In this document: piece after piece, positions 18,579 to 34,588 of the stretch
How the letters are laid out: every line of letters begins with the position of its first letter
Numbering within the stretch: the stretch's first letter is position 1
Assembly: GCF_003966975.1 (NCBI RefSeq)
Contig: NZ_AP018437.1
Location: 2,790,001-2,854,000 of the forward strand
Source of the DNA: Pelolinea submarina
Lineage (GTDB): Bacteria > Chloroflexota > Anaerolineae > Anaerolineales > Anaerolineaceae
Direction of reading: 5' to 3'
DNA length: 64,000 bases
The notes under the pieces: generated by a model
Told to the model about the DNA's origin: nothing
Database searches by the model: none
Seen by the model: only the letters and a program-made list of their open reading frames with translations
Translations under genes and position numbers: made by a program

Positions 18579-19340
18579 CTATGCGGGTTGATAGAAGGAA
18601 ACCGGCCCATCCTTGCAGGTCAGCCAGCCGTGCGGCAGCCCGACAGCGTCGCAGGTGGGTTCGTCGATCTCGCACGAACCGCACAAGCCGATGCCGCAGC
18701 GCATCATAGCTTCCCAGGAGAATTGTCCGGCCAATCGGTTGTCTTTGCAGAAAGCTGCCAGCGCTAATAGCATCGGTTTAGGGCCGCAGGCGTACAGCGT
18801 TTGCGCGGGGAAATCCACCAGCGCGGCGCGCACCGCCTCCAGCACCAACCCACGCTGTCCGGCGCTGCCGTCTTCCGTGGCAGCCTCCACCCGGCAGCCG
18901 ATCTCGCGGAAATCCTCCGCCAGCAGCAGCTCGGCCTGATTGCGCGCGCCCAGGCACACACAGACTTCCTCGCCGCGCGCCCTGGCCTGTTTGGCCAGAA
19001 AATACAGTGGCGCCGCGCCATATCCCCCGCCCACCAACAGATGCTTCTTTCCTTTTAACTCAAAACCCTGCCCCAGCGGGCCGCGCACCCATAAGGGCTG
19101 CCCGGGTTCCAGGGCACATAAAGCTTCGCTGAAAGGCCCCACCGCCGCGATGGCTGCCGTGAGCGGGTCAGCGTTGGCGATGCTGAAAGGTTTTTCGCCG
19201 ACATCCGGCAGCCAGATCATTACAAACTGTCCGGGCTGCGCTTCCGCCAGCGGCCGGTCCAGTACCAAACTGCGCGTCCGGTAATTTTTCGGCTGTGAGG
19301 TGCTGATGAAATATCGTTGATATGCTTGCATGTCGCTCAT
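18579..19340 (-). CDS. pyrK: Dihydroorotate dehydrogenase electron-transfer subunit PyrK
   Basis: The FAD- and [2Fe-2S]-containing subunit that passes electrons from the PyrD dihydroorotate dehydrogenase to NAD+. The 253-residue length fits. A flavin/NAD-binding reductase domain (GEKPFSIAN; LLVGGGYGAAPLYFLAK; YACGPKPML) is followed by the cluster motif MRCGIGLCGSCEI with a fourth Cys in LTCKDGPVS. Its ATG overlaps the pyrD stop by four bases, which means translational coupling and fits the heterotetrameric class 1B enzyme. Last gene of the pyr operon. Confidence 0.95.
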   Translation of the reverse strand: MSDMQAYQRYFISTSQPKNYRTRSLVLDRPLAEAQPGQFVMIWLPDVGEKPFSIANADPLTAAIAAVGPFSEALCALEPGQPLWVRGPLGQGFELKGKKHLLVGGGYGAAPLYFLAKQARARGEEVCVCLGARNQAELLLAEDFREIGCRVEAATEDGSAGQRGLVLEAVRAALVDFPAQTLYACGPKPMLLALAAFCKDNRLAGQFSWEAMMRCGIGLCGSCEIDEPTCDAVGLPHGWLTCKDGPVSFYQPA

Positions 19341-20272
19341 CGGATTGCTATGCCTCTCATACTTGCCAGGTCGGGATAGCCCTCGCCCGCCATAAATTCA
19401 TACATTTCCTCGGCAATGACCGCAAAAACATCCACACCGCGCTGCCAAACCGCCGAACCTACGCCCACCGCGGTAGCGCCCGCCATGATCATCTCGACCG
19501 CGTCCAACCCGTTGCTCACTCCGCCCAGCCCAATCACCGGGATACTAACGGTTCTGCTAATCTCGGCCACGCAGCGCAGTGCGATGGGCTTGATGGACCA
19601 GCCCGACACACCGCCCACCTTGTTGGAAAGCACCGGCCGTCCCGCGTATGGGTCAATCAGCATGCCCGGCACGGTGTTGATGGCCGTGATTGCGTCCGCG
19701 CCTTCCTCCTGTGCAGCTAAAGCAATGCGCGCGATATTAGGCACATTGGGCGCTAACTTGATCGCGATTGGCAATTTCGTTTTGGCCCGCACCATGCGTG
19801 TGACAGCCGCCGCGCTTTCCACCGAACCGGAGAAAGGCGTGCCGAATTCATCTCCCACGTTCGGGCAGGAAATGTTCACTTCGATCAGGTCAGGCTCGGC
19901 CGCGCTGACCCCGGCCGCCATGCGCCCAAAGTCCTCCACGGTCGGCGCGAAGATGCTGGCAATCAGGGGAATCCCCTGCGCGTGCAGCCTTTCGCGCGCG
20001 TCAATAAGCGTTGGAATTTCAGCTTCCAGTCCGGGGTTGGTCAGCCCGACCGCGTTGATAACTCCGCCGGCCCATTCCACCGCGATGGGGTTGGGATGCC
20101 CGGCGCGCTCTTCCGGCCCGCAGCTTTTGGAGGTCACCGCGCCGGCGCCGCAGGCTCCCACCCGCTCCAGCAACGCCGCGCTGGTGCCCAGTACGCCTGA
20201 GGCCAGAACCAGCGGGTTGTGCATGCGCACACCCGCCAGTTCACAGGTCAAATCGACAGAAACTTTATTCAT
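19337..20272 (-). CDS. pyrD: Dihydroorotate dehydrogenase, class 1B catalytic subunit
   Basis: Oxidises dihydroorotate to orotate with FMN. It has the family opening NPLVLASGVLGTS, substrate-site NAVGLTNPG, and VNISCPNVGDEFG, in which Cys is the catalytic base of class 1 enzymes. The 311-residue length fits class 1B. The ATG at 20272 overlaps the end of the pyrF/E fusion by eight bases (ATGAATAA). The presence of pyrK next door confirms class 1B. Confidence 0.96.
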   Translation of the reverse strand: MNKVSVDLTCELAGVRMHNPLVLASGVLGTSAALLERVGACGAGAVTSKSCGPEERAGHPNPIAVEWAGGVINAVGLTNPGLEAEIPTLIDARERLHAQGIPLIASIFAPTVEDFGRMAAGVSAAEPDLIEVNISCPNVGDEFGTPFSGSVESAAAVTRMVRAKTKLPIAIKLAPNVPNIARIALAAQEEGADAITAINTVPGMLIDPYAGRPVLSNKVGGVSGWSIKPIALRCVAEISRTVSIPVIGLGGVSNGLDAVEMIMAGATAVGVGSAVWQRGVDVFAVIAEEMYEFMAGEGYPDLASMRGIAIR

Positions 20273-21662
20273 CCAGGTAATCCCGCACGGACTGATAAGT
20301 TGCCGCGTCAATCAATCCGCTTTCCTTTAAAGTGGTCATGATTTCGCTGATGGTCAACACCGCGTGCAGCTTCAAACCCAGCTCGGCCATCTTGGCCGCG
20401 CCGCCCTGCTCGCGGTCCACCAGCACCACCACATCCGTTACGCTCAAACCGGCTTGCTTCAAAACTTCCAGTGAGGTAACGATGCTGCCGCCGCTGGTGA
20501 TAACGTCTTCCAAAATCACCGCGCGCTGCCCGGCTTCAAAAGCGCCTTCGATGGCTTGCCCGGTGCCGTGTGTCTTGACTTCCTTGCGCGGATAGATGAA
20601 GGGACGCCCCAACTGTTGGGCCACCACAGCCGCGGTAGGCAGCGCCGCGTAGGGCACACCCGCGATGCGGTCGAAATCCAATTTCTCGACAATCTCCGCA
20701 TAAAAACGTGCTGTCAAGCTGAACAATGCGGGGAATGAAACCACACGGCGCAGGTCGATGTAGATGGGTGATTTTTTGCCGGACGCGAGAGTGAAATTGC
20801 CAAAGCGTACACAACCGCTTTCAAACAAACCGCCCACCAGCTCCTTCTTCAACGATTGCGGTCCGCACTTGGTCTGGCGGAAAGTTTCAACTTCCCCCGC
20901 TATTTGAGCATTGTATTCGCGTGCGGCCGCGTTCGGGTCGGCCGCCTGCATCACGCCGCGCGAAACCGGCACGATCAGCCCGCTGCCGTCGGCGCGTAGT
21001 CCCGCTTGCAGGGCTTCCTGCAGGCTGCCGCCCTGCGCGCCCACCCCGGGCGCCAGGATCCAGTTTTGCGGGCACAGTGTGCGCACGCGCGCCAGGGCTT
21101 GCGGTTGGGTGGCGCCCACCACAAAGCCGATTTGGTCGGCCGAACCCCAGCTTTGCGCTATTTGTGCGACGTGCTCATACAGCGGCGGCAGGCCGTACAG
21201 CTGTAAATCCGCGGCCGAAGGATTGGAGGTATTGCATAAGATAAAGACCATTTTCCCGTCATACTTCAGGAAAGGTTCCACACTGTCCCGGCCCAGGTAA
21301 GGGCTGATGGTGACCGCGTCCGCGCCCCACTGTTCGAAGGCCGCTTTGGCGTAAGCTTGAGCGGTGGAACCAATATCGCCGCGCTTGACATCCAGCAGTA
21401 CCGGAATGTTCCCCGGTACCGCCTGAATGATACGCTGCAGTGCGCGCAGCCCATCCGGACCATATTGTTCAAAGAAGGCAAAGTTGGGCTTATAACAGCA
21501 AGCCTGATCGTCCGTCTGTGCGATAATGCCTTGGGCCCAATTGACCAGCTTTTCTTCGTCGTTCGCGCCGTCGGTCAATTGCTCCGCGCGCGGATCCAAC
21601 CCCACGCATAACAGCGATCGGTTGGCCTGTACTGCTGCTTCCAGTTTAGAAATAAAACTCAT
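20265..21662 (-). CDS. pyrFE: Orotidine-5'-phosphate decarboxylase / orotate phosphoribosyltransferase fusion
   Basis: One 465-residue polypeptide carrying the last two steps of UMP synthesis in inverted order relative to pathway and to animal UMP synthase. Residues 1-270 are a type-2 OMP decarboxylase (NRSLLCVGLDPR; LLDVKRGDIGSTAQAY; APGVGAQGG). Residues from about 285 on are the phosphoribosyltransferase (GVPYAALPTAAVVAQ; YPRKEVKTHGTGQAIEG; PRPP loop VILEDVITSGGS). The start is the ATG at 21662 with AGGAGC upstream; a longer reading has no ribosome site. It ends overlapping pyrD. An OMPDC-OPRT order is known from cyanobacteria and trypanosomatids. Confidence 0.95.
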   Translation of the reverse strand: MSFISKLEAAVQANRSLLCVGLDPRAEQLTDGANDEEKLVNWAQGIIAQTDDQACCYKPNFAFFEQYGPDGLRALQRIIQAVPGNIPVLLDVKRGDIGSTAQAYAKAAFEQWGADAVTISPYLGRDSVEPFLKYDGKMVFILCNTSNPSAADLQLYGLPPLYEHVAQIAQSWGSADQIGFVVGATQPQALARVRTLCPQNWILAPGVGAQGGSLQEALQAGLRADGSGLIVPVSRGVMQAADPNAAAREYNAQIAGEVETFRQTKCGPQSLKKELVGGLFESGCVRFGNFTLASGKKSPIYIDLRRVVSFPALFSLTARFYAEIVEKLDFDRIAGVPYAALPTAAVVAQQLGRPFIYPRKEVKTHGTGQAIEGAFEAGQRAVILEDVITSGGSIVTSLEVLKQAGLSVTDVVVLVDREQGGAAKMAELGLKLHAVLTISEIMTTLKESGLIDAATYQSVRDYLDE

Positions 21663-21721: not shown

Positions 21722-22717
21722 TTATGCTTCGCCTAATACGGAGGCCAGCAGCGCCATACGCACGAACATACCGTTGCGTACCTGGCGGAAATAAGCGGCC
21801 CGCGGGTCGCGATCGACTTTGTAATGAATTTCACCCACGCGCGGTAAGGGATGCATCACAATCATGTCCTTCTTGGCGTGAGCCAGTACTTCTTCAGTGA
21901 TCTCGAAATAATTTTTAACTTCTTCGTACAGGGCCATATCGGTGAAGCGTTCTTTTTGGATGCGGGTTACGTACAGGACGTCTACATCTTTGATGATATC
22001 TTCCATGCGATCCGTTTCGCGTACATCGATGCCCTTGTTGATCAATTCGTTCATCAGGTTGAGCGGCAGGCGCAGGGTATCGGGAGAAACGTAGCGCAGG
22101 CTGACGTCGTAATTTTCCAGCAGTTTGGTCAGGCTGTGTACGGTCCGTCCGTTGCGCAGGTCGCCCAGCATGGCCACCTTCAACCCATCGATGCGGCCGA
22201 ATTCCTTGCGGATGGTGTATAAGTCCAGCAGTGCCTGCGTGGGGTGCTCGCCCGCTCCGTCGCCGGCGTTGATAATCGGCACGGATGCGTATTTGGCTGC
22301 TTGTGCTGCCGAACCAATTTCGGGATGGCGCAGCACAATGATGTCGGCATATTTTTCCAGGGTCAGCATGGTGTCCACCAGGCTCTCACCTTTGGATACG
22401 GAAGAATATTGGATACCCTGCGTGATCGGGATGGTGCTGCCGCCCAGGCGTTCCATAGCGCCGATGAAAGAGGAACTGGTGCGCGTACTGGGTTCGTAGA
22501 ACACGCAAGCCTGAACGTAGCCTTTCAGCAAGTCGCAAGCGCCAACTTTTTCTACCATCTCCGCCATTTCTTCTGCCCGCGTGAAGATGTAGGAAAGTCC
22601 GGCTTTATCGAACTGGTTGACGGACAGAATATCTTTCTGATACCAGCCGTTCTTGAACTTGGGCTCTCGTGTCACTCCTTCCAGATTGAATAATTTCTCG
22701 ATTTTGATTTGGTCCAT
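21722..22717 (-). CDS. pyrB: Aspartate carbamoyltransferase catalytic chain
   Basis: Joins carbamoyl phosphate and aspartate. The carbamoyl-phosphate site [12 protein letters not shown] and the aspartate-domain motifs [28 protein letters not shown] and [10 protein letters not shown] are all present. The 331-residue length is slightly above the usual 305-310, with an N-terminal addition of about 20 residues. The start is the ATG at 22717 with AAAGGAG upstream. No regulatory chain (PyrI) gene is adjacent. Second gene of the pyr operon, 29 bases after pyrC. Confidence 0.96.
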
Positions 22718-22746: not shown

Positions 22747-23817
22747 TTATTGGATGATTCCGTTTTTGACGACCTCTTTGCCGTCCAGCACCACGCGCTT
22801 GATGCGCCCCTGCATCTGCATGCCGTCGTAGGGCGACCAACCGCATTTGGTATAGAGTGGGTGGTCCGGGAAGGTGTAACTTTCCTCGGGATCCACTTCC
22901 ACCCAGGTATCTGCCTGTTCAGGCAGGTTGAAGATGCGCCGCGGATTGTCGTACATCAGTGCTTTCAGCCGTGCCATACTCAAGCGTCCTTCCGCCACAG
23001 CCGTCAGCATCAACGGCAGCGCCGATTCCAGCCCGGGCACGCCCGGCGGTGGGTTCTGCGCCGCGGACTTCTCCGAAAGTGTGTGCGGCGCGTGGTCGGT
23101 GGCCACAATGTCGATGGTGCTTCCGATGCGATCCCACAATCCTTCCACGTCGCGCTGCTCCGCCAGACGCGGACGCATATCCCCCAGGGGGCCCAGCCGC
23201 TGCGCGTCCGCCTGCGTCAGGAATAAGTGATGCGGGGTAACCTCGCAGGTCACCGGCAGGCCGTCCCGCTTGGCCGTCGCAATCCACTCGATTTCGTCCT
23301 TACGGCTGACGTGGCAGAAATGCACCGGCCGTTCCAGCTTTTCCGACACGCGGATCCCCATACGGATGTTGTCTCCCTCGGCATGCAGCGACAGCACCTT
23401 ATCGCGCGGCCAGGCCTGCGCGATGTGCAGCAGGTCTTCTTCGTTGTCCACCTTCAATTGGCCGTAAGTTGGATCCAGGTAAATTTTGAGCGCTTTGGCA
23501 ATTCTCCCCAGCATGGTCAGTTGTTCCAGCGAGGCCATGGTCGCGCCGCAGTATAAATACACCGGGCACAAGCCTTCCCACTCGGCCTGCTCCTGGTAGT
23601 GCCGCCAGGTATCCAGGTCGGTCAGCGGCGGATTCGTATTGGGCATCGCCATCACCTGGGTAATTCCGCCTACCAGCGCGGCGGCGGTTCCGCTGCGGAA
23701 ATCTTCCTTGTGTTCCCCGCCCGGTACGCGCAGGTGCACATGCACATCTACCAAACCCGGCAGCTTGATCCAATTCGGATTTACCATCTCGTTTTCATCT
23801 CTTTCATTTTTCAGCAT
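22747..23817 (-). CDS. pyrC: Dihydroorotase (CAD-like type)
   Basis: Cyclises carbamoyl aspartate to dihydroorotate. It has the zinc motif [10 protein letters not shown] near the N-terminus, [10 protein letters not shown], and a second set of His ligands in [10 protein letters not shown] and [10 protein letters not shown]. The segment [13 protein letters not shown] replaces the Lys-containing loop of other dihydroorotases, as in animal CAD and its bacterial relatives. The start is uncertain: ATGs at 23829, 23823, 23817 and 23787 are in frame. I use 23817, which has GGAG six bases upstream. It is the first structural gene of the operon, directly downstream of the leader-peptide attenuator. Confidence 0.93.
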
Positions 23818-23846
23818 TTCCATCTCCATAACCTCTGCAAACAGGC

Positions 23847-23872
23847 AAAAAAAAGACCCCCAAAAGGGGGTC
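23847..23872 (-). terminator. Intrinsic terminator / attenuator in front of pyrC
   Basis: Minus strand: GACCCCC / GGGGGTC with an AAAA/TTTT loop, then eight consecutive T. It lies between the leader-peptide stop (23881) and the pyrC start codons, so it must be bypassed to express the operon. Confidence 0.9.
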
Positions 23873-23880
23873 AATGGAAA

Positions 23881-23937
23881 TTAATAAATAACCTCAGGTG
23901 TGCGGTGCTGCGTACGTTCCAAACCCGGGATTTTCAT
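23881..23937 (-). CDS. Leader peptide of the pyr operon (18 residues)
   Basis: A short frame reading MKIPGLERTQHRTPEVIY, with an ideal ribosome site (AAGGAG, spacing 6) and an ATG start. It lies about 30 bases after the predicted transcription start. Its stop codon is only 8 bases before the first base of the terminator stem, so a ribosome at or near the stop would cover the left arm and block the terminator. The last codons and following bases are U-rich (GTTATTTATTAATTT), which is where a polymerase short of UTP would pause. This matches the logic of the E. coli pyrBI attenuator, although the peptide itself is unrelated as far as I can tell. I do not recognise the peptide. Confidence 0.75.
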   Translation of the reverse strand: MKIPGLERTQHRTPEVIY

Positions 23938-23976
23938 TTTTCTCCTTATCCGTATATGTGGTGGCAAATTGCGCAA

Positions 23977-24005
23977 TTTATACCACAATTAGCGGCGAAT
24001 GTAAA
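23977..24005 (-). promoter_or_regulatory. pyr operon promoter
   Basis: Minus strand: TTTACA (24000-24005), 17-base spacer, TATAAA (23977-23982). The start point would be near 23970. Confidence 0.85.
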
Positions 24006-34231: not shown

Positions 34232-34588
34232 AAACCGGGTTGGCCGGATGATCGCGGCATGCACCGCATGTCGAGGAAAGTCCGTACTCCATAGAGCACG
34301 AAACCGGGGAAACCTCGGGACGGGGTAACCTGTCGGATAGGGCCACAGAAACATACCGCCTTTCGGGGTAAGGGTGAAATGGTGGTGTAAGAGACCACCG
34401 GGAACCGCAGTAATGCGTTCGCCGGGCAACCCCTTTCGGGAGCAAGGTTAAACAGATGCCTGGTCTCCACAGGCCGCTCACCTGGCCGGCGCAAGCCGGC
34501 GGCGTCAGGTAAACCGCTCAGACAGATGATCATACAGGCAGGCTTTGCCTGCCGGACAGAATACGGCTTATAGACCAACCCGGGTTTT
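34232..34588 (+). ncRNA. rnpB: RNase P RNA (type A)
   Basis: The catalytic RNA that trims tRNA 5' ends. The ends pair as helix P1 (AACCGGGTTGG with CCAACCCGGGTT). Conserved core pieces are in order: GAGGAAAGTCCG, GCCACAGAAA, GGTAAGGGTGAAA, GTAAGAGACCACCG, the CAGACAGATGATC region and ACAGAATACGGCTTATAGACC at the 3' end. A GCAGGCTTTGCCTGC hairpin precedes the last core strand. The length is about 357 nt. Confidence 0.97.

Follow-up and report, generated by a model that had tools for sequence, protein, structure and literature searches.

The pyrBI operon of enteric bacteria is the textbook example of nucleotide sensing through a race between ribosome and RNA polymerase. In its pyrL leader, pausing of the polymerase at low UTP acts together with a coupled ribosome (PMC10135430). 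The signature of UTP-dependent reiterative initiation is seen at carAB P1 (GUUUGC) and also at pyrBI, codBA and upp (PMC6245113), and at E. coli pyrC the selection of the start site hides the pyrC ribosome site, with no terminator involved (PMC4491880). A 2010 survey described leader-peptide systems as known only in Proteobacteria and Actinobacteria and added Firmicutes (PMC2965389). No literature on Anaerolineaceae leader peptides or on pyr attenuation in Chloroflexi was found, subscription literature, where absence means little, being thinly covered.

The window analysed here is a stretch of 64,000 nt from Pelolinea submarina (Chloroflexota, Anaerolineales; GCF_003966975.1, NZ_AP018437.1:2,790,001-2,854,000), and all coordinates below refer to it. 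Its pyrCB-FE-DK operon is probably under the control of a translation-coupled transcription attenuator of the pyrBI type, and initiation is probably a second point of UTP-sensitive control.

Architecture of the pyrC leader and its operon

The leader contains the following elements, listed in the direction of transcription.

24000..24005, minus strand: -35 element TTTACA (sequence and 17-nt spacing to the -10)
23977..23982, minus strand: -10 element TATAAA (sequence; GGTATAA invariant across three members of the genus)
23965..23970, minus strand: AATTTG where transcription is expected to begin, a candidate site of UTP-dependent reiterative initiation (sequence, predicted start)
23942..23947, minus strand: Shine-Dalgarno AAGGAG of the leader frame (sequence; 4 nt upstream of the ATG)
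23881..23937, minus strand: leader frame MKIPGLERTQHRTPEVIY plus TAA, 18 codons (reading of the ORF; TAA at 23883-23881)
23873..23891, minus strand: U-rich stretch UUAUUUAUUAAUUUCCAUU on the 5' side of the stem, proposed UTP-sensitive pause region (sequence)
23855..23872, minus strand: terminator (attenuator) hairpin GACCCCCUUUUGGGGGUC, stem GACCCCC-UUUU-GGGGGUC of 7 bp (sequence and folding)
23847..23854, minus strand: U8 tail of the terminator (sequence)

The promoter, the 18-codon frame, the gap of 8 nt between leader stop and stem and the terminator with eight U, all claimed in an earlier note on this DNA, were confirmed to the base. The "perfect" ribosome site of that note was a generous description: AAGGAG is present, but its 4-nt spacing to the ATG is a little short. 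The stem segment folds with -15.5 kcal/mol (z = -3.8), equalled by 0 of 200 shuffles, and a T run flanks the hairpin in the direction of pyrC only. Because the T tail lies only on this side and the upstream neighbour, an ABC transporter gene on the plus strand from about 24073, is divergent, the hairpin cannot serve that gene, and a role as its terminator was ruled out. A simple scan showed no promoter-like site between the hairpin and pyrC, although the same scan skips the TTTACA-17-TATAAA pair, with its -10 ending in A. The leader TAA is placed 54 nt upstream of the first pyrC ATG, and beyond it the same frame stays open across the hairpin into pyrC. The leader peptide is of the shortest type; its start (MKIPGL) resembles that of PyrC (IKLPGL), a feature common to one sister species, G003 (MKLPG), and not to the other, G001.

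Downstream of the attenuator the gene order is pyrC-pyrB-pyrFE (fused)-pyrD-pyrK, and each of these five genes matches the NCBIfam models expected for it.

22747..23829, minus strand: pyrC, dihydroorotase (TIGR00857 1e-81, 275 bits vs a cut-off of 279, just below)
21722..22717, minus strand: pyrB, aspartate carbamoyltransferase (TIGR00670 5.7e-109)
20265..21662, minus strand: pyrF-pyrE fusion, OMP decarboxylase/orotate phosphoribosyltransferase (NF004034 6.9e-133, TIGR02127, TIGR00336)
19337..20272, minus strand: pyrD, dihydroorotate dehydrogenase (NF005574 4e-92)
18579..19340, minus strand: pyrK-like electron transfer subunit (NF000796 3.8e-61, just below its cut-off)

pyrC starts at the ATG at 23829 or further downstream in the same frame, for example at the ATG at 23787. 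The upp gene of the window (30629, plus strand) shows no U-run or leader. The window also contains a class A RNase P RNA (34236-34586, plus strand).

The earlier note had seen neither a PyrR gene nor a PyrR-binding-type anti-antiterminator, and this held on closer inspection. The best PyrR hit of a model search in this genome reaches 36 bits vs a cut-off of 138, and no Rfam family, the PyrR element included, matches the leader, a relaxed threshold giving chance-level hits only. Control by PyrR was ruled out on these two absences, of gene and of RNA element. PyrR exceeds the cut-off in 8 of 400 genomes of the order, all from one genus (g17; L145-L152), and is absent from the others of the 130 genera; in that genus it has probably replaced the control system locally.

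Conservation of the layout in Anaerolineales and beyond

The comparison covered the pyrC upstream regions of 134 loci of the order. A mechanical rule, based on a promoter-like pair and a hairpin with a T tail and ignoring reading frames, detected promoter and intrinsic terminator in 90 of the 134 regions, from 13 of 14 families; the rule misses some loci, such as G055 (L018), which likewise has an open leader. About a third of the regions have no detected promoter-hairpin pair, including close relatives (pyrC 55-65% identical), and the device is therefore dispensable. The promoter of the order is strikingly uniform (TTGACA-16-TAnAAT), and that of the window, TTTACA-17-TATAAA, differs from it.

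A single 18-codon frame is weak evidence by itself; its openness across genera is not chance. With one locus per genus and an ATG at most 20 nt from the -10, a choice that places the window's own genus outside the test, reading from the first ATG meets no stop codon before the last 10 nt ahead of the hairpin in 47 of 48 genera; the corresponding figures are 12 and 28 of the 48 for the other two frames and 26.7 as expected from dinucleotide shuffles (P = 3e-13). Relative to the stem, 53 of 81 leader stops are placed beyond, 15 inside, 9 at -10 to 0 and 4 early, with none 11-27 nt upstream; in each of the four early-stop leaders another ATG lies 7 nt downstream, in a frame open through the stem. 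The leader reaches at least to -10 nt from the stem in 77 of the 81 relatives. In most relatives the leader frame continues across the hairpin as far as the pyrC start codon, and the stop lies at most 25 nt from the pyrC start in 57 of 87. In both sister species with pyrC (G003 and G001) the frame runs through the hairpin and overlaps pyrC at ATGA, and frame and hairpin are kept in all three species of the window's genus having pyrC. The leader peptides share no sequence beyond that imposed by the hairpin (e.g. ..ESxxGSLFF, ..PVGxFF), and what is under selection would therefore be that translation reaches the stem, whatever the peptide. In G227 (L077) leader and pyrC form one continuous frame across the hairpin, which would place the attenuator inside the coding sequence.

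The U-rich run that the earlier note placed before the stem is present in the window as a putative pause stretch (UUAUUUAUUAAUUU) and is matched in relatives by a block with 53.5% U at -20 to -11 relative to the stem, with a GC-rich stretch upstream. The maximal U content per 12 nt is 7.9, vs 5.5 (sd 0.17) in shuffled leaders. The region proposed to form a pause hairpin upstream of this block has a mean z of -2.1 per genus across the order (P = 2e-12); in the window z is +0.5 and a pause hairpin is not supported. Across the order, conservation thus extends to the open frame, the U-rich block and the arrangement of promoter, ATG and hairpin; the exact 8-nt gap and the peptide sequence, which also belonged to the earlier account, are not conserved.

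Two features are additions to that account: an apparently leaderless start in most relatives and the initially transcribed sequence AAUUUG. In 48 of 53 genera, with 6.6 expected (P = 7e-39), the first ATG is found 7-16 nt past the -10 box, and in most relatives the leader starts 8-12 nt after the box. This puts the ATG on the transcription start or within a few nt of it, and the leader of most Anaerolineales relatives looks leaderless. Predictions of leaderless initiation exist for some Chloroflexi genomes, the -10 boxes there preceding the starts by about 12 bp (PMC3160421).

The start sequence of the window, AAUUUGCC, is of the R-U-U-U type, as in E. coli pyrBI, with a purine and at least three U at the inferred start site (AATTTG). 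This AATTTG, 6 nt after the -10, is invariant in the three species of the genus, whose surrounding DNA has diverged. The window reads TATAAA-TTGCGC-AATTTGCC, and E. coli pyrBI TATAAT-GCCGGAC-AATTTGCC (7-nt spacer). A purine-TTT at +7/+8 after the -10 is present at 18 of 22 loci of the window's subclade and in 9 of its 10 genus groups, a count that overstates independence, the genera being related. The same motif is found in 1 of 87 loci of the leaderless order-wide group and in 2.8% of 1025 control promoter-like sites (pyrC promoters masked). The start sequences of relatives are GUUUUG, GUUUAA and AUUUAA. Most of the nearest pyrC relatives lacking leader frame and hairpin (L014, L015, L016, L041-L053, L153, L155, L234) retain purine-TTT, which suggests that they may be controlled by reiterative initiation alone. 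The loss of the attenuator in several relatives of the subclade suggests a shift toward initiation control, the window's genus having both.

Other families of the class, outside the order, show the pyrC attenuator layout as well. Leader frames led by a Shine-Dalgarno sequence and ending at or in a GCCTGATCC hairpin are present at L160-L163 and L238-L248 (f49, f59), and at L280, L285, L301 and L303 the frames traverse the hairpin, with the leaderless arrangement at L301; these frames were chosen by eye from listed candidates and are weaker evidence than the order-wide test. The sister clades (L160-L163, L209, L238-L248) have in common a motif resembling CCCGGTGCnnnnnAGGCAnA after the likely pyrC -10, a basic leader peptide led by a Shine-Dalgarno sequence and the GCCTGATCC hairpin.

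Ahead of carA (L237/L308, in the window's own genome at C1:about 476060-476334; L309, L311) a leaderless, Arg-rich leader frame, MFKMNRMLRTRFQPTASHREDGRLDIA and its relatives, ends 34-46 nt before a CAGCCCTTC terminator. In contrast to the pyrC leader of this genome, it is a candidate for arginine attenuation of the classical kind.

Proposed mechanism and rival explanations

RNA polymerase would start at about 23970 and make the leader, in which a ribosome would begin the short frame. At low UTP the polymerase would pause in the U-rich stretch before the stem, allowing the ribosome to catch up; once at the leader stop, 8 nt short of the stem, or past it, the ribosome would block the hairpin and the operon would be transcribed. 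At high UTP the polymerase would outrun the ribosome, the hairpin would form and transcription would end before pyrC; the AAUUUG start may also trap the polymerase in unproductive addition of U. The peptide sequence would be immaterial, selection keeping a frame that delivers the ribosome to the hairpin. At the tR2 terminator of E. coli, a ribosome at a stop a few nt before the terminator represses termination, an effect lost beyond about 27 nt (PMC4824070). Since such short distances suffice at tR2, the 8 nt between the window's TAA and the stem should still let a ribosome at this stop interfere with the stem.

From this arrangement we infer pausing at low UTP, interference by the ribosome, termination in vivo, slippage at the start and translation of the leader; the putative link to UTP is drawn from the anatomy of the leader and the function of the operon. 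The pyrBI logic read by the earlier note is supported and strengthened by the conservation in relatives, the response to UTP being predicted from sequence. On a broader proposal we are evenly divided: that a repressor-free, leaderless pyrBI-type attenuator evolved independently and class-wide, and that the window's branch re-created the full E. coli scheme, with an AAUUUG slippage start and a ribosome-coupled attenuator.

Control could instead reside at initiation only, with UTP-dependent reiterative transcription or start-site selection at R-UUU setting the level and the hairpin acting as a fixed partial terminator. Such a scheme is favoured by R-TTT, which the window's subclade has conserved also at loci devoid of leader frame and hairpin and with varying spacers to the -10. 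However, the window's genus has retained frame and hairpin in every species with pyrC, and the order-wide group has both with R-TTT in only 1 of 87, the attenuator therefore standing alone elsewhere; we consider initiation-only control unlikely. Less likely still is a classical amino-acid attenuator, in which stalling at regulatory codons (e.g. arginine) would shift an RNA switch. Pro, Phe, Leu and Arg abound in the leader frames, and a plausible Arg-rich leader of this kind precedes carA in the same genome, but no codon cluster is conserved across the 90 pyrC leaders, no competing antiterminator appears in the window fold, and the pyrC frames end at or past the stem, as opposed to a distance of over 20 bp between leader gene and terminator in such systems (PMC4824070), a spacing that the carA leaders here do show (34-46 nt). 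Amino-acid attenuation was rejected on the missing codon run and the wrong stop-to-stem distance.

Simple translational coupling, or a general sensor of coupling, would have the frame only feed ribosomes to pyrC, with termination reporting poor translation. The 57 of 87 stops close to the pyrC start and the ATGA overlaps of both sister species fit this, yet it leaves unexplained a hairpin with a U tail inside the frame and the U-rich block preceding it, and in the window 54 nt separate the stop from the first pyrC ATG; we hold this reading to be just as improbable as the amino-acid one. Least credible of all is a chance frame before an ordinary terminator, or an attenuator controlled by a protein or RNA (PyrR or an unknown factor). 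Any stretch of 60 nt is fairly likely to be open (about 56% by the shuffle expectation), but the openness and the placement of the ATG, each with one locus per genus, have P values of 3e-13 and 7e-39, and neither PyrR nor an Rfam match is found.

If the translation-coupled attenuator is confirmed, a pyrBI layout conserved in a distant phylum would mean that evolution can arrive more than once at this design, which needs no repressor. Dozens of natural variants would become available for dissecting which parts are needed: leaders with a Shine-Dalgarno sequence or leaderless, stops upstream of, inside or past the stem, and starts of the slippage type or not. It would also imply tight coupling of transcription and translation in Chloroflexota and offer a way to predict leaderless translation there.

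Comparison with known systems

PyrR-controlled pyr attenuators of the Bacillus type likewise place an intrinsic terminator before pyr genes, but here a leader frame reaches the hairpin and there is no RNA switch, PyrR gene or PyrR element. Amino-acid attenuators (trp, his, ilv) also combine a leader peptide with a terminator; unlike them, the pyrC leader has no run of regulatory codons and its stop is at or beyond the stem instead of more than 20 nt before it. Start-site switching at E. coli pyrC also controls this gene by pyrimidine nucleotides and lacks the terminator of the window. The purine and UUU at the start resemble the reiterative transcription of E. coli carAB P1 and pyrBI, a likeness at the level of sequence.

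The closest resemblance is to E. coli pyrBI (pyrL), with which the locus shares a sigma-70 promoter, a short leader frame reaching to the attenuator, a U-rich stretch, a hairpin with U8 and a first gene belonging to de novo UMP synthesis. The ATG-to-hairpin distance of 88 nt, the Anaerolineales median, equals that given by the same script for pyrL, and the window start AATTTGCC is identical. As the earlier note had pointed out, peptide and first gene differ: pyrC, not pyrB, comes first and the peptide is unrelated to PyrL. The host belongs to Chloroflexota, the leader appears to be leaderless in most Anaerolineales, and the window frame stops 8 nt before the stem, whereas pyrL passes through it, with its stop 47 nt past the stem start. 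Relatives that read through the hairpin to the pyrC start are in this respect closer to pyrL than the window is. The leader is not a pyrBI leader by descent, because the defining operon order (pyrB first) and the PyrL peptide are absent; the other phylum, the other first gene and the dissimilar leader sequence make an origin separate from enteric pyrBI likely. The pyrC leader is thus probably a convergent variant of a known mechanism, with putative sensing of UTP.
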